Assembly: GCA_019348115.1 (NCBI GenBank)
Contig: JAHWKB010000004.1
Location: forward strand, 1-38,794
Length of the DNA: 38,794 bases
Source of the DNA: Actinomycetota bacterium
Lineage (GTDB): Bacteria > Actinomycetota > Nitriliruptoria > Nitriliruptorales > Nitriliruptoraceae
Direction: 5' to 3'
The notes beneath the pieces were generated by a model. The model saw nothing but the letters and a program-made list of their open reading frames with translations. It did not search any database and had not been told where the DNA came from. How positions within the stretch are numbered: the stretch's first letter is position 1; each line of letters starts with the position of its first letter. Position numbers and translations under genes: made by a program. Shown here piece by piece: positions 2,917-38,794 of the stretch.

Positions 2917-3826
2917 GCCGACCCTCCCGGCACACGGGCCCGGACGGCACGGTCGGCGCCGGTCAGGTCGGGGACGAGGGTCACGTCGACGAGCCCGGCG
3001 GCCACGGCGGCCCGAGCGGCGTCGGGGCCACGCCGGTCGTCGATCTCGAGCACGACGACGCCGCCGGGCCGGAGCCACCCGCGCGCCGCGGCCAGGAGCG
3101 CGTCGACCACCTCGTGCCCGTCCGGCCCTCCGACGAGGGCGCCGTCGGGGTCGTGGCCGAGCTCGGGCTCCCACGTCGCCCGGTCGCCGGCGGGGAGGTA
3201 CGGCGGGTTGGAGACGAGCACGTCGACCGATCCCCGGAGGTCCGTGGGGAAGCCGGCGAGGAGGTCGGAGCGGACGACGGTGCAGCTGGCGCCCCGCGCC
3301 AGGCCGGGCACGTCCGCCTCGCCGACGAGGACCGCCGCGAGGTTGTCCCGGGTGAGCGCGACGGCGTCCTCGGAGACGTCGCCGGCGTGCACGTCCGCCT
3401 CGGCGACCTCGGTGGCGACGGCGAGCGCGATGGCCCCGCTGCCGGTGCAGGGCTCGACGACGACCGGGGCGGGACCGGCGGCCCGGGCCGCCTCGATGGC
3501 GACGCCGGCGACGATCTCGGTCTCGGGCCGGGGGATGAACACGCCCGGACGGCAGATGAGGCGGAGGTGGCGGAACCACGTGGCGCCGAGGAGGTGCTGG
3601 AGCGGCACGCGCCGGGCCCGCTCGGCGACGAGACGCGCGAGCTCGTCCACGCGCGGATCGTCGGTCATCACCCCACTGCTGGTGCGACCACCCGCGTCAC
3701 CGAGCACGGCACGGACGAGCAGGCGCGCGTCCACGGCCGGGGTCGGGACGCCGGCGTCGGCGAGCGTCGCCGCGTGCCGTGCGACGAGCGCGTCGACCGC
3801 CATCGTGGACGACGTCGCCCGGACGG

Positions 3827-23607: not shown

Positions 23608-23976
23608 TCAGCGCTTGGTGAGCTCCGCGACGAGGTCGAGCAGATCGATGGGGTCGAACGGCTTCGTGATGTAGGCCTCGGCGCCGAGCTCGGTGCCGCG
23701 CTGGAGGTCGTCGTCCTGGGCGCGGGCCGACAGGAAGACCACGGGGACGTGCTTGAGGTCCTCGTCCTCCTTGAGCTCGGCGAGGACCTGCCAGCCGTTC
23801 TTCCTCGGCATCATGATGTCGAGGAGGACGAGGTCGGGACGGAAGGCCCGGGCCTGCTCGAGAGCCTCGACCCCGTCGCCGGCGAGCGCGACCTCGTAGC
23901 CCTCCATCTCGAGGTTGACCTGCAGCAGCCGCTGGATGACGGGGTCGTCGTCGACCGCCAGCACCTTCGCCGCCAC
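23608..23976 (-). CDS. Single-domain response regulator (receiver only)
   Basis: VAAKVLAVDDDPVIQRLLQVNLEMEGYEVALAGDGVEALEQARAFRPDLVLLDIMMPRKNGWQVL...VVFLSAR...EAYITKPFDPIDLL. GTG 23976 preceded by AGGAGG. Confidence 0.92.
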   Translation of the reverse strand: MAAKVLAVDDDPVIQRLLQVNLEMEGYEVALAGDGVEALEQARAFRPDLVLLDIMMPRKNGWQVLAELKEDEDLKHVPVVFLSARAQDDDLQRGTELGAEAYITKPFDPIDLLDLVAELTKR

Positions 23977-24137
23977 GTGTCGCCTCCTGAAGGGATCCCG
24001 CCGCACGTCCGAGCCTCCGCGCGGGCGAGCGCACGGTAGCCCCTCGGGATGCCGGCGTCGCAGCGCCCCACCACCCCTGGAGCACGCCTGCGGGGCCGTG
24101 GCCCCATGGGGCCCGTGGTACCGTCCTGCCCCGACGC

Positions 24138-24209
24138 GCCCCCGTAGCTCAGTGGATAGAGCACCGGCCTCCGGAGCCGGAAGCGTAGGTTCGATTCCTA
24201 CCGGGGGTA
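24138..24209 (+). tRNA. tRNA-Arg (anticodon CCG)
   Basis: GCCCCCG-TA-GCTC-AGTGGATA-GAGC-A-CCGGC-CTCCGGA-GCCGG-AAGC-GTAGG-TTCGATT-CCTAC-CGGGGGT-A folds as a cloverleaf (72 nt). CCA not encoded. Confidence 0.95.
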
Positions 24210-24213
24210 CTCA

Positions 24214-24238
24214 GCCGGCCAGCACGGGGATGGCCGGC
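24214..24238 (+). terminator. Hairpin directly downstream of tRNA-Arg
   Basis: GCCGGCCA-GCACGGGGA-TGGCCGGC, 8-bp perfect stem 4 nt after the tRNA. Confidence 0.5.
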
Positions 24239-24307
24239 CGCCGGACCGTCGTCCTGTGCGGCTCCGACCGGGCATGATGTCGACGGCCCCGCGGGATGGG
24301 AGGGTCC

Positions 24308-25126
24308 GTGGCCGGTGAGGTGGCGTCATGCACCCCGGCGGACGCCGCCCTGTCATCACTCGTGGACGACGTCACGGCGCTCTCCCGTGATGCGCCACTC
24401 GACGCGCGGGTCCCGGGCCTGGAATGGAACGTGGGCGACGTCCTCGCCCACCTCGCCGTGCAGGTCGAACGCTTCCGGGACTTCGTGACCGGTGACCGTT
24501 CTCCAGACGACGACGTCGCCGTTGTGCCGGACGGGCCCGTCCCGGTCGTCGTCGCCGAGGTCAACCGCCGGCTCATCGCCAGCGTCGACCACCGGGACGC
24601 GGCCGTGCTCAACGACCGCCTGCGCGCAGCGGTGGCCGACTACCTCTCCGTCACGGCCACGGTGCCTCGGTCGACGCCGTTCCGGTCGTGGGAGTGCGGG
24701 ACCGACGTGGGTGGCGCCACGGCCATCCTCGTCGCGGAGATGCTTGTGCACGGACTCGATCTCGCGCGTGGCCTCGGCACGGCTTGGAGGATCGTCCCTT
24801 CGCACGCCTCACTGGCTCTGCCGACCGTCTGGGCTCTCCTCCCGGCCTACCTCGATCCCGTCGCCACCCGCCATGTCCGTGCGAGCCTCGCGTTCGCGCC
24901 CCGCGGGATGCCTGGCGTGCGCGTGTCGGTCGATGGCGGCGTAGCCGAGGTGGTTCCCGACGTGGGTCCCGTCGACTGCCGGATCCACGCGCGACCGGAC
25001 GACCTCCTGCTCCTGTCCTTCGGTCGAGTCGCTCTGGGAGGCCTCGTGAAGCGAGGCCGGCTCTGGGTTTCCGGCCGACGCCCGTGGATGGGTCTCCCGG
25101 CGCCGTCGTGGTTCCTTCCACCGTGA
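24308..25126 (+). CDS. MDMPI/DinB-like N-terminal domain protein with possible SCP2-like C-terminal region
   Basis: LDARVPGLEWNVGDVLAHLAVQVERFRDFVTGD..., AEMLVHGLDLARGLGTAWRI, C-terminal CRIHARPDDLLLLSFGRVALGGLVKRGRLWVSGRRPWMGL. Start GTG 24308 or ATG 24296. Confidence 0.75.
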   Translation: MAGEVASCTPADAALSSLVDDVTALSRDAPLDARVPGLEWNVGDVLAHLAVQVERFRDFVTGDRSPDDDVAVVPDGPVPVVVAEVNRRLIASVDHRDAAVLNDRLRAAVADYLSVTATVPRSTPFRSWECGTDVGGATAILVAEMLVHGLDLARGLGTAWRIVPSHASLALPTVWALLPAYLDPVATRHVRASLAFAPRGMPGVRVSVDGGVAEVVPDVGPVDCRIHARPDDLLLLSFGRVALGGLVKRGRLWVSGRRPWMGLPAPSWFLPP

Positions 25127-26472
25127 TCCGGTACGCGCGCAACGGCCGAGCGCACATCGCCTACGACGTCCGCGAGCAACTCGCTGGGGAACCGCGGGAC
25201 CTACTGATGGTCTCGGAGGGCTTCGTGCCGTTCGAGACCATGGACGATCTCCCTTCCCTCGCCCGGGTGCTGCGTCGCCTGACCACGTTCAGCCGGGTCA
25301 TCCTGTTCGACCGTCGCGGCATCGGCCTCTCGGACCCGTTCCATGCGACGGAGTCCCCTTCGCTCGAGGACTGGGTCCAGGACGCGGTCACCGTCCTGGA
25401 CGCCGTGGGCTCCGCCCAGGTCTCCGTCCTCGGGTCGGTCGAGACCTCCACCATCGCCACCCTCTTGGCGGCGACGCGACCGGATCGCGTGCGCAGTCTC
25501 GTCCTGATCAACTCGGCTGCCCGGGCCACGCCGACCGACGGGTACGAGCACGGCCATCCCCCCGAAGTGGTCGACGCGCTGATCGATTTCACGACCTCGA
25601 TCGAAGGCGGCGACGGAGAACCCGCCGGCCTGGTGGCACCGAGCGCCGTCGGCGACCCGGTGTTCCACCGCTGGTGGGAGCGGGCCGGCCGGCTCGGTGC
25701 GAGCCCCGCGACCGCGCGGGCCTTGCTCCGCATGGCAGTCCTCGCCGACCTGCGGCCCGTCCTGCCGACGATCGGCTGCCCCGTGCTCGTCCTGCGGAGG
25801 CGCGAGGACCCGCTCGTATCGTCGGGTATGGCGCGCTACGTCGCCGACCACGTCCGTGAGGGCCGCTTCGTGGAGGTCCCCGGTGCGGACAACCTATGGT
25901 TCGTCGGGGACACCGACCCGCTCCTCGACGAGATCGAGCGGTTCCTGACCGGACGTCTCAGCGCGGTCGACGCCGATCGCACGTTCGCGACGATCGTGTT
26001 CACCGACATCGTGGGATCTACCGCCCTGGTGAACCACCTCGGCGAGCAACGGTGGCGCTCCCGACTCGACGCGCACGACGACATGGTGCGTCGACAGCTC
26101 GACCGCGCCGGCGGCCGCGAGATCAAATCCACGGGTGACGGGTTCCTCGCCACCTTCACGGGCCCGGCGCAGGCACTCGAGTGCGCGCAGGCGATGCGCG
26201 CCGGAGCCGCACAGCTGGGCCTGCGATTGCGCATCGGGATGCACGCCGGGGAGTTCGACCTTCGCGGCGGGGACATCAGCGGGGCGAACGTCCACGTCGC
26301 CGCGCGGGTCGCCGCCCTTGCCGGCCCGGATGAGATCCTCGTCACGGGGACCATCCAGGGCGTGCTTTCCGGTCACGCCGTCGCCTTCGAGCCCCACGGG
26401 ACGCACGAGCTGCGCGGCTTCCCGGAGCCGTGGCCGCTCTACCGCGCGCTCCCGCCCGTCGCCACCCGATGA
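25123..26472 (+). CDS. Alpha/beta-hydrolase - class III adenylate/guanylate cyclase fusion
   Basis: N-terminal alpha/beta-hydrolase fold (RVILFDRRGIGLSDPF...) and C-terminal cyclase: FATIVFTDIVGSTALVNHLGEQRW, GREIKSTGDGFLATF, RIGMHAGEFDLRGGDISGANVHVAARVAALAGPDEILVTGT. GTG 25123 overlaps the upstream stop (GTGA). Confidence 0.9.
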   Translation: MIRYARNGRAHIAYDVREQLAGEPRDLLMVSEGFVPFETMDDLPSLARVLRRLTTFSRVILFDRRGIGLSDPFHATESPSLEDWVQDAVTVLDAVGSAQVSVLGSVETSTIATLLAATRPDRVRSLVLINSAARATPTDGYEHGHPPEVVDALIDFTTSIEGGDGEPAGLVAPSAVGDPVFHRWWERAGRLGASPATARALLRMAVLADLRPVLPTIGCPVLVLRRREDPLVSSGMARYVADHVREGRFVEVPGADNLWFVGDTDPLLDEIERFLTGRLSAVDADRTFATIVFTDIVGSTALVNHLGEQRWRSRLDAHDDMVRRQLDRAGGREIKSTGDGFLATFTGPAQALECAQAMRAGAAQLGLRLRIGMHAGEFDLRGGDISGANVHVAARVAALAGPDEILVTGTIQGVLSGHAVAFEPHGTHELRGFPEPWPLYRALPPVATR

Positions 26473-26552
26473 CCGACCGATGGCGCCAACGGGTGCCCCG
26501 GCGCGGCCTCCGGTAGCCGACGAGCGGCACGCATCGGACGTGACCGAGCCGG

Positions 26553-27305
26553 TCAGGCGTTGATGGGCCTGAGCGACTGGATGTGCGGCGCGATGCGCTC
26601 GCCGGGGCAGCTCTTGGCTGCGTGGTCGCGGTGACCGGAGATCTCGAGGTCGGGCTCGATGTGGCCGAGCGCGACCCCGTCCTCGATCAGGTCCTTCGCG
26701 GCAGCCCAGGCCTCCGGGGTCGGGACGTGCTTGTCGCCGTCGATGGCGAAGGCGATGCCGATCGAGCGGTCGTTCATGCCGACGGTGTGGGCGCCCTCAC
26801 GGCCCCAGCCACGGCCCTCGTAGACGCGACCGGACTGGAAGACGACGAAGCTGTAGCCGAAGCCGCTCCACTGGTTGTCCTCGACGTGGGTCTTCTCGAC
26901 GGCGCGCATGAGCGCGGCCTCGCGCTCTGGAGCGACGACCGACGGGAGGTTCGGGCGCCAGAAGTGGTGGATGATCACGTCGTCGACCGAGCCGATGAAG
27001 GTGCCGCGGCCCGCGGTCGCGCCCCAGTCGCCCCGCTCGATGACGTCGACCTGCGGCTCGACGGGGGCTGCGACGGGCTCCACCGGCGCGACGCGCGGCG
27101 GTGCGGTGAACCCGACCGTGGCCAGGACCGCGGTCATGAAGACGGCGGTTCCGGCGGAGAACGAGAGGGGGCTGAGCTTCAAGGACGTCTCCGAGACAGG
27201 TCGCGGGCGTTCGGTGTGTCCTCTGGACAACCAGCCACTGGCCGGGTTTGTTCCGGACAAGCCGGACATCTCCCCGATCGGGCGATGCAGCTTCCTCCGA
27301 CCCAC
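26553..27305 (-). CDS. Secreted/anchored N-acetylmuramoyl-L-alanine amidase, PGRP/Amidase_2 type
   Basis: Hydrophobic segment FSAGTAVFMTAVLATVGFTAPP, then RGDWGATAG...VDDVIIHHFW, YSFVVFQSGRVYEGRGWGREGAHTVGMNDRSIGIAFAIDGD, ISGHRDHAAKSCPG. Start uncertain (GTG 27305 or ATG 27269). Confidence 0.88.
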   Translation of the reverse strand: MGRRKLHRPIGEMSGLSGTNPASGWLSRGHTERPRPVSETSLKLSPLSFSAGTAVFMTAVLATVGFTAPPRVAPVEPVAAPVEPQVDVIERGDWGATAGRGTFIGSVDDVIIHHFWRPNLPSVVAPEREAALMRAVEKTHVEDNQWSGFGYSFVVFQSGRVYEGRGWGREGAHTVGMNDRSIGIAFAIDGDKHVPTPEAWAAAKDLIEDGVALGHIEPDLEISGHRDHAAKSCPGERIAPHIQSLRPINA

Positions 27306-27322
27306 CGGAGCGACCAGGCCGC

Positions 27323-28549
27323 TCAGCTCGCCACGGCCCTCGGGAGGAGCACGGTCAGCGTCGAGCCGGGCCCGTGGGTGTTGCGTCGGGCGGTCACCTC
27401 GCCGCTCACGGCGTGCACGAGGGACTGGACGACGTGGAGGCCGAGCCCCGAGCCGGGGATGACGTCCCGGTCCACCCCGCGCGTGAACGGGGCGAAGATG
27501 TCGACCCCCGATGGGAGCCCGATGCCGGCATCGCAGACGGCGATACGGACCCGGCCGGCGTCGCTGCGCCCGACGTCGATCCGGACGTCGCCTCCGTCCG
27601 GGGAGTACTTCACGGCGTTCTCGATGAGGTGCTCGAGCACGATCCGGACGACCTCAGCGTCGGAGTGGGCGCGCGGGGCCTCCGGGTCGACCACGACCTC
27701 GAGGTGGTGGGCGGCGGAGAGGGCGCCGAGGTCCTTGGCGCACCGTCGGGCGATCTCCCCGACGTCGACGGGCCCGACGGAGACATCGAGGGCGAGGGCC
27801 GCCGCCTCCGACTCCGACAGCATGGACCTGACCTCCGCAGTCGCGTGGCTCGCGGCCCGGGCGATCGCGTGCATGGCGGTCTGCCGGTCCTCCTCCTCCA
27901 TCGTGCCGTCGTCCTCGACGAGCAGCGACGCCCAACCGAGGATCACGGTGAGCGGCGTCTTCAGCCGGTGCTGGGCAGCCGCCACGAACTGCGACCGCGC
28001 CCGCAGGAGCCGGTCGGCCTCGCCGGCCCGCTCGTTCGCCTCGTCCAGCTGCTGCCCCCGCACCACGGCGTCGGCGATGATCCGGCCGAACACGGCCAGC
28101 AGCGACTCGGTCTCGGCGTCGACGTGCACGCGTGACGAGCTGGCACCGCAGATGGTCCCGAAGACGGCGCCGTCGGGCAGGACCACCGGGACGCTCACGT
28201 AGGTCTGGATACCGAGATCGCGCGCCGCGCTGCTGTCCCCCCACGTCCCGGGGACGTCCTCGGTGACGTGCTGTCCCGACTCGAGGGCCCGCCGGCACAG
28301 CGTGTCCGACCACGGCACCTCGAGGCCCTCCTCGATCGCGAGGGTGCCGGCGTTCTCCGCGATCTCGATCCGCTGGACCTGTCGGTCCCAGTCGACGGCG
28401 GTGAGGTAGGCCGACTCGAGCCCGGTCACGGCCCGCACCGCGTCGAGCAGCGGACGCGTGACGGAGGCGAGGTCGCCACCGCCGGCGCCGACCTGGACGA
28501 GCGCGCGCCGGATCGCCTCATCCGTCGGTGCGCCCGCCTGGTCCTTCAC
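27323..28549 (-). CDS. GAF-domain sensor histidine kinase (no TM segment)
   Basis: N-terminal GAF-like region, H-box region FVAAAQHRLKTPLTVILGW, N-box LEHLIENAVKYSPDGG, G1 VCDAGIGLPSG, F/G2 IFAPFTRGVDRDVIPGSGLGLHVVQSL. Confidence 0.9.
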   Translation of the reverse strand: MKDQAGAPTDEAIRRALVQVGAGGGDLASVTRPLLDAVRAVTGLESAYLTAVDWDRQVQRIEIAENAGTLAIEEGLEVPWSDTLCRRALESGQHVTEDVPGTWGDSSAARDLGIQTYVSVPVVLPDGAVFGTICGASSSRVHVDAETESLLAVFGRIIADAVVRGQQLDEANERAGEADRLLRARSQFVAAAQHRLKTPLTVILGWASLLVEDDGTMEEEDRQTAMHAIARAASHATAEVRSMLSESEAAALALDVSVGPVDVGEIARRCAKDLGALSAAHHLEVVVDPEAPRAHSDAEVVRIVLEHLIENAVKYSPDGGDVRIDVGRSDAGRVRIAVCDAGIGLPSGVDIFAPFTRGVDRDVIPGSGLGLHVVQSLVHAVSGEVTARRNTHGPGSTLTVLLPRAVAS

Positions 28550-28579
28550 CGTGGCTCCCGTGCCTGGGTCGAGCGAACG

Positions 28580-29620
28580 CTAGTCCCCGGCAACGGCCGT
28601 TACGTGTTCCCGCCCCGCACCTTCGTCTGGCTCGTCCTCGTCCTCCCGCCGCCGCTTCGCGACGAGCCACAACATGGCGAGGCAGATGAGGAGAAGGAGG
28701 ACGGCAAGCCCATGGAGGGGTGTGATCCCTCCATCCGCACCGCCGAAGAAGGCCCCGCCAAGAGCGCCACCCCGCAACTCGTTCTCAGCCGCATCCGCCG
28801 CGCCCTCGGGCACATCGACAGGCTCGCCGGGCACGACCGTCCCGTCGCTCAACTCCACACCGATGACGACCTCGCCAGGCAAACCGGCTGGGAGACGCCA
28901 GTCCGCGGTTAGGGTCCGGGCGTAGCCCGGGATGATGTTCTCTGCCACCATCGGAACGCGGGCCACAGGTTCGCCTGTCGGCAGCGAGATGACGAAATCA
29001 CCCGAGGGGCGGACGTGCGCATCGCCGACATTCTCCAGAGCCACCTGCAGCACGACATCGCTGTCGGTGGCAGTGGCCGACATGGCAACGCCGCGGCCGC
29101 GTAACGACTGGTTCCATGGTCGTGGACCGCGGAGTAGGAAGATTGCCGCGAGCTGCGTCTCGACGTCGATTGCCGCCGCACCGTCCTCGTTCACGAGACG
29201 AGCTACGACGGCCTTATAGACAGCGACGTCGTTCGGAAACCGGAACTTGACCTCGATGGAGCGCGACTCCCCTGGAGCCAGAGCGATACGCCCCTCTGTT
29301 TCCAGCTGCATCGTTTCGCCGTCACCCTGCTCGAAGACAGGAGTGCCCTCCAGTGTGTGCCCGAGGTCAGCTCCGACGATCTCCAGGTCCTGAGTAGCCT
29401 CAGTGCCGTTCGAGATGATGACGTCGAGGGAATGCTCTCTCTCAGCCAGGTCTAGCTCGCCGCGCGTAGGCGTGATCGTGATGCCGTCAGGAGGCGCGAT
29501 GGCCGCCGGCCCGGCCGCAACGAGCGTCGACGTGCCGATCAAGAAGGCCAGTCCGCTCACCATACGGCGGACGGCCGGCGTGGACGCCGGCCGTCGCCGA
29601 GGATTCCTACGGCGAGGCAA
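28580..29620 (-). CDS. DUF916/WxL-interacting-like extracellular protein with signal peptide and C-terminal TM anchor
   Basis: ITITPTRGELDLAEREHSLDVIISNGTEATQDLEIVG...IALAPGESRSIEVKFRFPNDVAVYKAVVARLVNE...ETQLAAIFLLRG, C-terminal LHGLAVLLLLICLAMLWLVAKRRR. TTG start immediately after the upstream stop; alternative ATG 29563. Confidence 0.68.
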   Translation of the reverse strand: MPRRRNPRRRPASTPAVRRMVSGLAFLIGTSTLVAAGPAAIAPPDGITITPTRGELDLAEREHSLDVIISNGTEATQDLEIVGADLGHTLEGTPVFEQGDGETMQLETEGRIALAPGESRSIEVKFRFPNDVAVYKAVVARLVNEDGAAAIDVETQLAAIFLLRGPRPWNQSLRGRGVAMSATATDSDVVLQVALENVGDAHVRPSGDFVISLPTGEPVARVPMVAENIIPGYARTLTADWRLPAGLPGEVVIGVELSDGTVVPGEPVDVPEGAADAAENELRGGALGGAFFGGADGGITPLHGLAVLLLLICLAMLWLVAKRRREDEDEPDEGAGREHVTAVAGD

Positions 29621-30145
29621 TCAGACTCCGGAACTCACGGTGTAGGTCAACTCGTGACGGTAGGTCCCCGCCGGGTCCAACGCCGTCGCCGGCTGCGTGA
29701 CCGTCAAATCATACGTGTCACTCGTCGTCAGAATGCCAGTAAGCGGGTTCGTAGCCAGCGCGACGGCCGTCGTCCCGACCGGAACCGCGAGGTTGCCGAC
29801 GCCGGTGCTGGTACCCGCATTCACCGCAGACATCGTCATGCCAGACGACAGCACGTTCGTGCCATACACCGAATTGATGGAATCCCATTCCTTCATCGTC
29901 GCGTTCAACGACTTCACCGAAAGGGTGTACGCCGTGTTGGCATCCACGGTGATCGAACCGATCGCCGCGGCCGTAACCGGCAGTTGGGCGAGCGTCGCAT
30001 CAGCGGGAGCGGACGAAATCGTGATCGTCCCAGCCAAAGTCCCTGTGACGTTCTGGGTCTCGGCGCCAGCGCCGGCGACACCGAAGGCGGTGGCGAGAAG
30101 GGTGCTGGCGAGGGCGGTGGCGGCGATCTTCCGCGAGATCCGCAT
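29621..30145 (-). CDS. Secreted, cysteine-free, Thr/Ser/Ala-rich beta-strand protein (WxL-like strand pattern)
   Basis: Signal peptide MRISRKIAATALASTLLATAFGVAGAGAET; mature chain without Cys; C-terminal DPAGTYRHELTYTVSSGV. AAAGGA upstream of the ATG. Confidence 0.72.
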   Translation of the reverse strand: MRISRKIAATALASTLLATAFGVAGAGAETQNVTGTLAGTITISSAPADATLAQLPVTAAAIGSITVDANTAYTLSVKSLNATMKEWDSINSVYGTNVLSSGMTMSAVNAGTSTGVGNLAVPVGTTAVALATNPLTGILTTSDTYDLTVTQPATALDPAGTYRHELTYTVSSGV

Positions 30146-30676
30146 CCGGGAATCCTTTGATCCGGGGCCGGATTGGAGGGCGGCCCGCTGTCACTCAGAG
30201 CATCGCCGCGGTTACTGGATGACTACATAGGGCAGGTTGCCCATCCTCACCTTCCGTGACGCGAAGAAGAGGACATACCCGGCACGGTCAGTGACCGTGC
30301 GGACAGGCCCGACAGCGCGAGCCCGGCCGCGTTCCCGCTCGTTCTGGGTGCGATCCGCGTCGAATCCGAACCCCGAGGTGCGGAATCGCGTGCCCGAGCA
30401 CGGGGCCGCGGGACGACCGCGTCACGGTGCGTGGTCGGGCCGAGCGCGGGGCGCGGCCCGCTGTCATCGTCCGCTCGGCCGGCGTTCGCTCGGCGTGGAC
30501 GGCGAGCAGGCACGGGACCGTGAGCAGCTGGGCCCGGGATACGGGGAGGGGCTGCTCGCGGTCGCGGTGGACCCCACGGTCCAGGCGGGACCGCGCGGCG
30601 GCGCGCTGCCACCGGGCACGGGAGCCGGGCAGGACTACGCTCGCCGGCCCGCCCCGACCGCACCCGCGAGGAACGC

Positions 30677-32158
30677 ATGCGCGAGATCGACGTCACCGAC
30701 CGCTCGATCTACACCCGCACGATCGGCATCGAGCACGACCCGGAGGCGGGACCGCGGCGGAACATCGACGCGAAGGGGCGTGAGATCGCGCCGGACCTGC
30801 TCGCGCTCATGGGCGACACGCCGCTCGTGGCGATGGAGCGGATCTCGAAGGACGTCCCGCCGACGCTCATCGCCAAGCTCGAGATGCTGAACCCGGGTGG
30901 GTCGGTGAAGGACCGCATCGGCATCGCGATGATCGAGGCGGCAGAGGCGGCCGGCGTGCTGAAGCCGGGTGGGACCATCGTCGAGCCGACCTCCGGCAAC
31001 ACCGGGGTCGGGCTCGCGATCGCCGCGGCGCGGAAGGGCTACCGCTGCCAGTTCGTTGTCCCGGACAAGGTGAGCCAGGACAAGATCTCGCTGATGCGCG
31101 CCTACGGGGCCGAGGTCGTGGTCTGCCCGACGGCGGTGGATCCGGAGGACCCGCGCTCCTACTACTCGGTGTCCGATCGACTCGCGGCCGAGCCGAACGC
31201 GTTCAAGCCCAACCAGTACTTCAATCAGGCCAACCCGCAGACGCACATGATGTCGACCGGGCCGGAGCTGTGGCGCCAGACCAACGGCCTCATCGACGCG
31301 TTCGTCTGCGGCGTCGGGACCGGCGGGACCGCGACCGGCATCGGTCGCTACCTCAAGGGACGGAAGCCCGACGTCCAGATCATCGGCGCGGACCCGGAGG
31401 GCTCCCTCTACTCCGGGGACGAGATCCACCCGTACCTCGTCGAGGGCATCGGCGAGGACTTCTGGCCCGAGACCTTCGACCCGGCCATCGTCGACCACTG
31501 GTACCGCGTCTCCGACCGCGACTCCTTCACGACGGCCCGGCGCATCACCCGCGAGGAGGGGATCCTCGTCGGCGGCTCGGGCGGCACGGCCGTCTGGGCC
31601 GCGCTCGAGTACGCCAGGACGCAGCCGGAGGACGCCACCATCGTCGTGCTCCTCCCCGACTCGGGGCGCGGGTACCTGTCGAAGTTCCTCGACGACAAGT
31701 GGATGGCCGAGCACGGCATGCTCGAGCGCACCGGCGGCCGCAAGCACGTCACCGACGTCCTCGGCTCCAAGCCCGAGGAGCTTCCCGCCCTCGTCCACGT
31801 CCACCCCAACGAGACCGTGGCCCAGGCGATCGCGCTGCTGCAGGAGTTCGGCGTCTCGCAGATGCCGGTCTTCCGCGACGGCGTGCACGAGGACGCGATG
31901 ATCGGCGACGTCCTCGGCTCCATCCGCGAGAACGCGCTCCTCGATGCGGCGCTCAAGGACGCGGACGTCATGCAGAAGCCGATCGGTGAGGTCATGCAAC
32001 CGCCGCTGCCCGTCGCCGGCGTCAACGAGCCGCTCGACGACGTCTTCGCCGGCCTCGCGGCCGGCTCGCCTGCGGTCGTCATCGTCGACGACGAGCGCCC
32101 CGTCGGCGTCGTGACCCGCGCCGACCTCCTCACCTTCCTCGCGAGCCAGCAGGGCTGA
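30677..32158 (+). CDS. cbs: Cystathionine beta-synthase with C-terminal CBS domain pair
   Basis: LLALMGDTPLVAMERISKDVPPTLIAKLEMLNPGGSVKDRIGIAMIEAAE (PLP Lys), EPTSGNTGVGLAIAA, C-terminal CBS motifs (FGVSQMPVFRDG...VIVDDERPVGVVTRADLL). Confidence 0.95.
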   Translation: MREIDVTDRSIYTRTIGIEHDPEAGPRRNIDAKGREIAPDLLALMGDTPLVAMERISKDVPPTLIAKLEMLNPGGSVKDRIGIAMIEAAEAAGVLKPGGTIVEPTSGNTGVGLAIAAARKGYRCQFVVPDKVSQDKISLMRAYGAEVVVCPTAVDPEDPRSYYSVSDRLAAEPNAFKPNQYFNQANPQTHMMSTGPELWRQTNGLIDAFVCGVGTGGTATGIGRYLKGRKPDVQIIGADPEGSLYSGDEIHPYLVEGIGEDFWPETFDPAIVDHWYRVSDRDSFTTARRITREEGILVGGSGGTAVWAALEYARTQPEDATIVVLLPDSGRGYLSKFLDDKWMAEHGMLERTGGRKHVTDVLGSKPEELPALVHVHPNETVAQAIALLQEFGVSQMPVFRDGVHEDAMIGDVLGSIRENALLDAALKDADVMQKPIGEVMQPPLPVAGVNEPLDDVFAGLAAGSPAVVIVDDERPVGVVTRADLLTFLASQQG

Positions 32159-37529: not shown

Positions 37530-38794
37530 CTACCGCGGCAGGGGCAGCAGCGACTCGCAGATCGTGCCGGCGCCGTCCTCGGCGGGTCGAACATCGAGCG
37601 TGCCACCCAGCTCGGACTCGACGAGGGTGGACGCGATGCGGAGGCCGAGGTTCGCATCACCCTCGAGCGTCCAGCCGTCGGGGACGCCCACGCCGTCGTC
37701 GCGCACCTCGAGGTGGAGGCTCGCCGGCCGGCGCTGCAGCGTGATGGTGATGCGCCCGCCGCGTGCCGGGAAGGCGTGCTCGACGGAGTTCTGGACCAGC
37801 TCGGAGAGGACCAGCGCGAGCGGGGTCGCCACCTCTGCGGGGAGCTCGCCGGCGGTGCCGTCGAGCGCCATGTGGACCGGATGATCGGGGTTGGTGAGGC
37901 CGGTCCCGAGCATGTCGACGAGCCGCTGGGCGACCTTGTCGAACGACACCCGCTGACGCGAGTCCTGCGACAGGGTCTCGTGGACGAGGGCGATGGACGA
38001 GATGCGCCGCACGGACTCGCCGAGGGCCTGTCGGGCCTCCTCCGACTGGAGCCGCCGGGACTGCAGCCGGAGGAGCGAGGCCACCGTCTGGAGGTTGTTC
38101 TTCACGCGGTGGTGGATCTCGCGGATCGTCGCGTCCTTGTAGAGCAGCAACCGCTCGTGCCGGCGGAGCTCCGTGACCTCGCGGATGAGCATCAGCCCCC
38201 CGAGGACGTCGTGGTCGCGGGTCAGCGGCAGGAGGCGACGGAGCACGACCGCCCCGCGCGCCTCGACCTCGGACTCGAGCGGATCGCCGTCGACGAGCGC
38301 CTCGAGGACGGCGACGTCGTCGAGATCGAAGTCGCTGAGGTTGCGTCCGACGATGTTGTCCACCACCCCGAGCCGCCGGTAGGCCGAGATCGCGTTCGGC
38401 GACGCGTACTGGACGACGCCCTTCGGGTCGATGCGCATGAGGCCGTCGCCGACGCGGGGCGCGAGCTCGCGCTCCGGGTCCTCGCCGGGATAGGGGAAGG
38501 TGCCGGCGGCGAGCATCGACGACAGCTCGTTCGCGGTCTGGAGGTAGGTGAGCTCGAGCTGCGACGGCGCGCGGACCATCGACAGGTTGGCCTCGCGCGT
38601 GACGACGGCGATGACCTCGCCGTCGAACAGGACCGGGATGGCCTCCTCGCGCACCGGCACGCCGGTGGACCAGTCGGGGTCGCCGTCCCGCACGATCTGG
38701 CCATCGCGGAACGCGCGTCCGACCGCCGGTCGCTCCTCACGCTGGTAGCGCTGCCCGACGAGGTCCTCGTAGTAGATGGTCTGCGCCGTGTACG
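37530..38794 (-). CDS. pdtaS: PdtaS-like sensor histidine kinase (GAF/PAS + HisKA_2), N-terminus beyond the right edge
   Basis: IREIHHRVKNNLQTVASLLRLQSRRLQSEEARQAL (HisKA_2), LVLSELVQNSVEHAFPARGG. The frame stays open upstream of the listed start to the edge: YTAQTIYYEDLVGQRYQREERPAVGRAFRDGQI. Confidence 0.9.
   Translation of the reverse strand, partial: YTAQTIYYEDLVGQRYQREERPAVGRAFRDGQIVRDGDPDWSTGVPVREEAIPVLFDGEVIAVVTREANLSMVRAPSQLELTYLQTANELSSMLAAGTFPYPGEDPERELAPRVGDGLMRIDPKGVVQYASPNAISAYRRLGVVDNIVGRNLSDFDLDDVAVLEALVDGDPLESEVEARGAVVLRRLLPLTRDHDVLGGLMLIREVTELRRHERLLLYKDATIREIHHRVKNNLQTVASLLRLQSRRLQSEEARQALGESVRRISSIALVHETLSQDSRQRVSFDKVAQRLVDMLGTGLTNPDHPVHMALDGTAGELPAEVATPLALVLSELVQNSVEHAFPARGGRITITLQRRPASLHLEVRDDGVGVPDGWTLEGDANLGLRIASTLVESELGGTLDVRPAEDGAGTICESLLPLPR

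Follow-up and report, generated by a model that had tools for sequence, protein, structure and literature searches.

A divergent WxL/DUF916-type gene pair with an apparently exchangeable ectodomain block in Nitriliruptoria

Most descriptions of WxL/DUF916 modules come from low-GC Gram-positive bacteria. The locus considered here lies in an actinobacterial genome of the Nitriliruptoria, on a 38,794-nucleotide stretch of contig JAHWKB010000004.1 (the window). At 26553-30145 it carries four minus-strand genes, transcribed in the order P1, P2, a GAF-HisKA-HATPase_c kinase and an Amidase_2 amidase. In the described csc/WxL clusters (Siezen 2006, PMC1534035; Hassan 2023, PMC10599100), adjoining genes encode the surface proteins of a proposed complex, and one report has the clusters excised or inserted as whole units (PMC1534035). 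The WxL domain is defined by two W-x-L motifs and a D-x-R-G before the first (PMC1534035). Its partner, WxLIP (DUF916-DUF3324-transmembrane helix, PF06030/PF11797; CscA; Enterococcus, Lactobacillus, Listeria), has a reported NQIDKxxxYFDLK signature (PMC10599100), and its insertion of a strand into WxL is a prediction (PMC10599100; Hassan 2023).

Considered together, the evidence makes it probable that P1 and P2 are a minimal two-gene DUF916 (WxLIP)-type surface module whose exposed parts are exchanged together, with the kinase and amidase as mere neighbours. The two members of the pair are:

29621-30145, minus strand: P1, small secreted protein of 174 residues, signal peptide at about residues 1-28, no cysteine
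28580-29620, minus strand: P2, 346 residues; signal sequence, two tandem Ig-like domains, membrane helix at about 301-328, cytoplasmic tail KRRREDEDE

P2 resembles WxLIP/CscA in several respects: it has a signal sequence, two Ig-like domains, a C-terminal helix and roughly 350 residues; it is encoded beside a small secreted partner; and it shows sequence-profile and fold similarity. It differs in falling below Pfam thresholds, in lacking the signature motif, and in having a partner that is not recognisably WxL. P1 is small, secreted, beta-rich and encoded with a DUF916 protein, as are the small WxL proteins (PF13731; CscB), and its closing strand is similar in style; unlike them, it has no W-x-L, DxRG or Pfam match, and the profile similarity is not significant. 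Whereas csc/WxL clusters typically hold two or more WxL proteins to one DUF916 protein, the window pair has one small partner, and its exposed parts appear to have been replaced between retained ends. In actinobacterial WxL/DUF916 pairs (G219 L044, G229 L041, G236 L042, G327 L016 and G016 L005), as here, one or two small secreted proteins lie directly upstream of a DUF916-like gene; several of those pairs pass the WxL and/or DUF916 cut-offs, whereas the window pair passes neither. The PapD-like chaperones (CfaA, CsuC, Caf1M) share the two-Ig fold and a beta-sandwich partner, but they are soluble, periplasmic and usher-dependent, whereas P2 is membrane-anchored.

P2 and P1 compared with the DUF916 and WxL families

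The family identity of P2 emerges from profile comparison. On its own, P2 has no Pfam or NCBIfam match, and PF06030 at its gathering score matches none of P2, P7 and P9, nor any protein of the window's genome. When the three P2 family members are compared with four Pfam-passing actinobacterial DUF916 proteins (the strict set), the probability is 97.1% (P 6.6e-11) over 188 columns spanning both domains; an extended set gives 99.0% (P 6.8e-18). Controls with a PKD protein, the amidase and the kinase reach at most 1.2%. By BLAST, P2 matches a G327 protein at 3e-5 (database size set to 1e6), and that protein passes PF06030 and adjoins a Pfam-passing WxL protein.

The structural model is consistent with this assignment. 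In an AlphaFold model of the P1-TGA-P2 read-through, P2 forms two beta-sandwiches and a terminal helix, with predicted local distance difference test (pLDDT) values mostly 60-88. Foldseek matches this model to the Enterococcus faecium WxLIP structures 9i1y and 9i25 (E 1e-7 to 3e-7), which have the highest query-normalised template-modelling score, 0.27, among the matches listed. Those matches also include the PapD-like chaperones CfaA, CsuC, Caf1M and FimC as well as axoneme proteins. The WxLIP architecture is present: behind a signal peptide come two beta-sandwich domains and then a membrane helix at the C-terminus, in a protein of 346 residues where 337-365 are expected. Sequence searches of the PDB with P1, P2 and their profiles returned nothing, and since a bona fide WxL/DUF916 pair also returned nothing, these searches are uninformative. 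Judged by its sequence profile, P2 is a divergent two-Ig-domain DUF916 (WxLIP) protein with a predicted membrane anchor.

P1 is less easily placed. It has no match in NCBIfam or Pfam, PF13731 included, and PF13731 has no match anywhere in the window's genome; the locus encodes one small partner only. P1 contains neither a W-x-L motif nor D-x-R-G: its only tryptophan sits in KEWDS, and the site of the first W-x-L motif reads NTAYTLSV. P1 is the partner by position, not a proven WxL protein. Matches of its model to Pgp3 and to viral-capsid jelly rolls (E at least 0.009) were discarded as products of a low-confidence model. Two other loci, L011 (at 3352-3726) and L012 (at 3106-3534), have a further gene for a small beta-protein, convergent to the DUF916-like gene, whose product reads SNAPWTLTV or SNTMWGLKV where P1 has ANTAYTLSV. 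These further small proteins are possible intermediates between P1 and WxL.

A first-pass annotation of the window, made from the letters and their open reading frames (ORFs), had described P1 as small, secreted and cysteine-free and P2 as anchored and DUF916-like. Both descriptions hold: P1 carries a signal peptide and is free of cysteine, and P2 has the membrane helix together with the profile and 9i1y/9i25 matches given above. Its further suggestion of a WxL/WxIP analogue survives for P2 as a DUF916-like protein and fails for P1 as a WxL protein. It had spoken of Acidimicrobiia-like genomes; the window's genome belongs to the Nitriliruptoria, not to the Acidimicrobiia.

The conserved pair and the probable exchange of its exposed parts

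Homologues of P2 are rare. At E <= 0.001 they occur in 3 of 66 genomes of the class (one being the window itself and one weak), and a two-row profile search finds them in 15 of 397 genomes of the phylum. The two clear full-length cases are G045, of the same class as the window, and G102. In each, a P1 homologue (34% and 35% identity, respectively) immediately precedes the P2 homologue (36% and 30%), with no kinase or amidase at the pair, and the surroundings are unrelated: the other neighbours are what we take, from gene names read off the sequence, to be ruvC and yebC in G045, and genes for a PKD-repeat protein and a HAD-type phosphatase in G102. Because the pair is kept while its other neighbours differ, the conserved unit is the P1/P2 pair.

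The arrangement itself is wider. In many more loci of Actinomycetota, and in one of Elusimicrobia, the gene just before a membrane-anchored DUF916-like gene encodes a small secreted protein, and some weaker relatives from Actinomycetota and Elusimicrobia pass the Pfam WxL and DUF916 cut-offs. A search of viral contigs for P2 relatives found none. Variants were also seen. In G016 (L005/L056), from the window's own family, genes for a large WxL-like protein and a DUF916 protein above the Pfam cut-off stand in a row with a downstream sortase-like gene. At L009, L010, L013 and L014, DUF916-like proteins without a small partner are encoded between lgt-like and uvrA-like genes; these carry an extra C-terminal domain of about 70 residues, ending like DDQIGLARAYIDGGDVAAARHELKEAR...EIGLIDDIL.

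The comparison that bears on exchange is with G014, a congener of the window's organism. Its contigs C113 and C204, joined by 55 identical end bases inside the amidase leader, continue the window's synteny on both sides at 82.6% and 83.9% identity; this end overlap is the basis of the join, and the break in the assembly could reflect variation among strains. The G014 order is tRNA-Arg, amidase, DUF916-like gene, WxL-like gene and cystathionine beta-synthase; the locus has no kinase, and the window's genes at 24213-26550 are absent. The slot between amidase and cystathionine beta-synthase holds P1/P2 in the window and a different pair in G014: P6, the small protein, matches WxL weakly (E 0.009), and P5, the larger one, matches WxLIP_PGBD weakly (E 0.006). 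The closest relative of the P5/P6 pair is in G219 (48% and 35%), and the WxL protein there is above the Pfam cut-off.

The compared regions of the window are:

30069-30211, minus strand: leader and signal-peptide coding region common with the congener
28670-30060, minus strand: apparently swapped block of mature P1 and P2 ectodomain, without similarity at the DNA level to its counterpart in the congener; GC about 0.62-0.66
28631-28669, minus strand: P2 membrane-anchor tail coding region common with the congener, where the swapped block appears to end downstream

Upstream DNA and signal-peptide codons are 81% identical over 144 nt, placing the upstream limit of the block at about 30060. At the other end, anchor-tail DNA is 87% identical over 39 nt with a score of 53, which 0 of 2000 codon shuffles reach (maximum 33); the P7 and P9 tails score 23 in the same comparison. 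Between these ends, mature P1 and the P2 ectodomain have no DNA similarity to G014 above shuffles. In a tree of 17 ectodomains, P2 groups with G045/G102 (100/100) and P5 with G219 (100/100), and a single P2+P5 clade is rejected (delta lnL 101.5; approximately unbiased test, p-AU 5e-37). P2 and P5 are less close to one another than to proteins from elsewhere, those near P2 coming from a different family and a different class and the one near P5 from a different class. Because the tree rejects the sister relation, the ectodomains were probably exchanged as a block.

Base composition also differs within the locus. Over mature P1 and P2 the GC content is about 0.64, down from 0.72, with no drop over the kinase or amidase; since the drop is confined in this way, the four genes are not one compositional unit. 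GC at third codon positions (GC3) is 0.78 in mature P1 and 0.755 in P2 (pair range 0.76-0.80), as against 0.95-0.99 in the kinase and the downstream metabolic genes. The simplest reading of these sequence comparisons suggests that both exposed halves were replaced as one block, with secretion and anchoring kept.

Kinase, amidase and the surrounding genes

The remaining features of the locus are:

27323-28549, minus strand: P0003, kinase with GAF_2-HisKA-HATPase_c; neighbour, outside the conserved unit
26553-27182 (ORF to 27305), minus strand: P0004, secreted amidase of the Amidase_2 (PGRP) type that probably starts with the TTG at 27182
27200-27270, minus strand: conserved leader of the amidase gene, a candidate promoter/operator; holds the palindrome TGTCC-AGA-GGACA and also the near-palindrome TTGTCCGGAACAA

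The four co-directional ORFs of the first-pass annotation are confirmed in place, and as all four have homologues elsewhere they are real genes; the kinase and amidase identities also stand, both being above Pfam cut-offs. The spacing it gave is borne out in part. The TGA of P1 is directly followed, in the same frame, by the TTG of P2, so that the gap is 0 with this start and 57 bp with the alternative ATG at codon 20. The P2-kinase gap is 30 bp. The 17-bp kinase-amidase gap requires an upstream GTG start and becomes 140 bp with the TTG at 27182. A simple scan for sigma-70 promoters and terminators over 26300-30700 found none and is uninformative at such GC.

The kinase has a generic domain composition. 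Its nearest relative within the order, at 51% identity, is in G011 with no P1/P2 pair near it, and the gene is absent at the G014 locus and at the G045 and G102 pairs. As a partner of the pair it was rejected: it is missing at the G014 locus; its G011 relative lacks a pair; and its GC3 is unlike that of the pair. The G011 relative (L055 2667-5324) lies near a gene resembling an MDMPI/DinB-type protein, and an MDMPI gene lies about 2.2 kb from the kinase in the window; co-transfer of the two is possible.

The amidase scores 70.1 bits against PF01510 (cut-off 26) and has a putative Zn-ligand-like H...H...C pattern (VIIHHF, SGHRDHAAKSCPG). The TTG at 27182 gives a good predicted signal peptide (MKLSPLSFSAGT...) and corresponds to the first start of the congener ORF L022:5618-6250. 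The protein is kept in G014 at 60%, its gene adjoining the pair's slot in both congeners, and it is absent from the G045/G102 pairs. The 140-bp gap before it holds a 72-nt leader, 85% identical to that of the congener and containing the perfect palindrome. Given its own conserved leader and the start at 27182, the amidase is probably transcribed on its own. A riboswitch in this leader was rejected (no Rfam match), as was TGTCCnnnGGACA as a regulon: the window genome has one exact copy of the longer palindrome pattern, so no regulon is shown.

Beyond these genes, a single-domain response regulator (23608-24006, minus strand) lies in a stretch that G014 keeps although it lacks the kinase. It is followed by tRNA-Arg (24138-24210), an MDMPI_N protein (24296-25126) and an alpha/beta-hydrolase-adenylate cyclase fusion (about 25183-26472). 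The latter two genes are absent from G014, so the stretch beside the tRNA looks variable. A PdtaS-like HisKA_2 sensor kinase is encoded at 37530-38693.

Alternative readings and a proposed surface module

The alternative with the most in its favour, although unlikely, is that P1 is a true but extremely diverged WxL protein (W-x-L to Y-T-L/V) and the window an ordinary WxL/WxLIP cluster. P1 occupies the WxL position upstream of the DUF916 gene, has N-T-A-Y-T-L-S-V in place of G-W-x-L-T-V, and ends in a strand, GTYRHELTYTV, that aligns in register with the final strand of WxL proteins from Actinomycetota; this register is a lead only. Set against these likenesses, the profile probability of at most 13% is under any usual cut-off, DxRG is missing, and W-x-L is absent from all three P1 family members. 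Another alternative starts from the PapD-like chaperones, whose fold matches rank with those of WxLIP: P2 would be an assembly chaperone and P1 a pilin-like polymerising subunit. A small secreted beta-protein beside a two-Ig partner, and a conserved aromatic C-terminal strand, are what such a system would offer. This is improbable given that P2 is membrane-anchored and related in sequence to DUF916, that no usher-like gene was seen among the window genes examined, and that there is one subunit gene only.

The two other alternatives concern the extent and history of the locus. The first-pass annotation had tied the pair to its own signalling and wall-remodelling enzymes; in that case, a four-gene operon would unite the surface pair, a dedicated sensor kinase and a wall amidase in one envelope-sensing and remodelling system. 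The common strand, the short gaps (0, 30 and 17-140 bp) and an amidase beside the pair's slot in both congeners are consistent with it. Neighbourhood comparison upholds the P1/P2 pairing but not the rest: no kinase is found at the G014 locus; neither enzyme is found at the G045/G102 pairs; kinase GC3 is 0.95 as compared to 0.76-0.80 for the pair; and the amidase, adjacent in two congeners only, sits behind its own leader, while the domain composition of the kinase is generic. The four-gene system is accordingly unsupported, and there is little chance that it is correct. A similarly small chance attaches to a history without exchange, in which one ancestral pair diverged very fast in its exposed parts while signal peptide and tail were constrained. 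Position, upstream DNA, signal peptide and tail are indeed common to both congeners. Such divergence is hard to reconcile with the rejected P2+P5 clade and the closer ties of P2 to another family and another class and of P5 to another class, with the foreign-looking GC3 of P2 and mature P1, or with flanking DNA at 83-84% and a neighbouring enzyme 93% identical between window and G014.

The preferred reading, of a DUF916-type pair with jointly exchanged exposed parts, has its own difficulties. P2 is below every Pfam threshold and reads ITITPTRGELDLAEREHSLDV near the N-terminus of its first domain, where NQIDKxxxYFDLK would be expected; the fold matched by its model is the general tandem-Ig fold, and the family is identified by the sequence-profile result. 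The 13% best profile score of P1 against WxL covers the last 35 columns, the closing strand. AlphaFold makes mature P1 all-beta at low confidence (pLDDT 54), and a fold search with this model gave no match at E <= 0.001. The read-through model of P1 and P2 has no confident interface, with three sequences per family only. The exchange rests on one comparison, as two genomes of the genus were compared, and the 39-nt tail identity may stem partly from the acidic/basic protein sequence and GC-rich codon use. Being short and partly forced in this way, the tail identity leaves the downstream limit of the block less certain than the upstream one.

If the pair works in the way predicted for WxL and WxLIP, the mechanism would involve: export of P1; binding of its beta-sandwich, probably completed by a strand from the first Ig domain of P2; and retention of P1 by P2 at the membrane or wall, so that P1 is displayed on the cell surface. 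Recombination between the common ends would then replace the exposed parts of both partners together, keeping secretion and anchoring. One consequence could be that phages, predators or a substrate, for example, meet an altered surface. A bolder proposal, for which the case is somewhat short of even, is that P1 represents a non-WxL family of DUF916-held surface proteins and that exchange of both partners' exposed parts as one block, between retained signal peptide and anchor tail, makes the pair a two-protein surface-variation cassette of Actinomycetota.

In the present comparison the WxL/DUF916 arrangement extends across Actinomycetota and reaches one Elusimicrobia genome, and the partner family seen here does not have the WxL motif. 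As this partner family is without the defining motif, the DUF916 holder may be the constant part of the module and the held protein the variable one. The apparent one-step replacement of both exposed halves would allow native variants to be used in testing whether holder and cargo are specific to each other.

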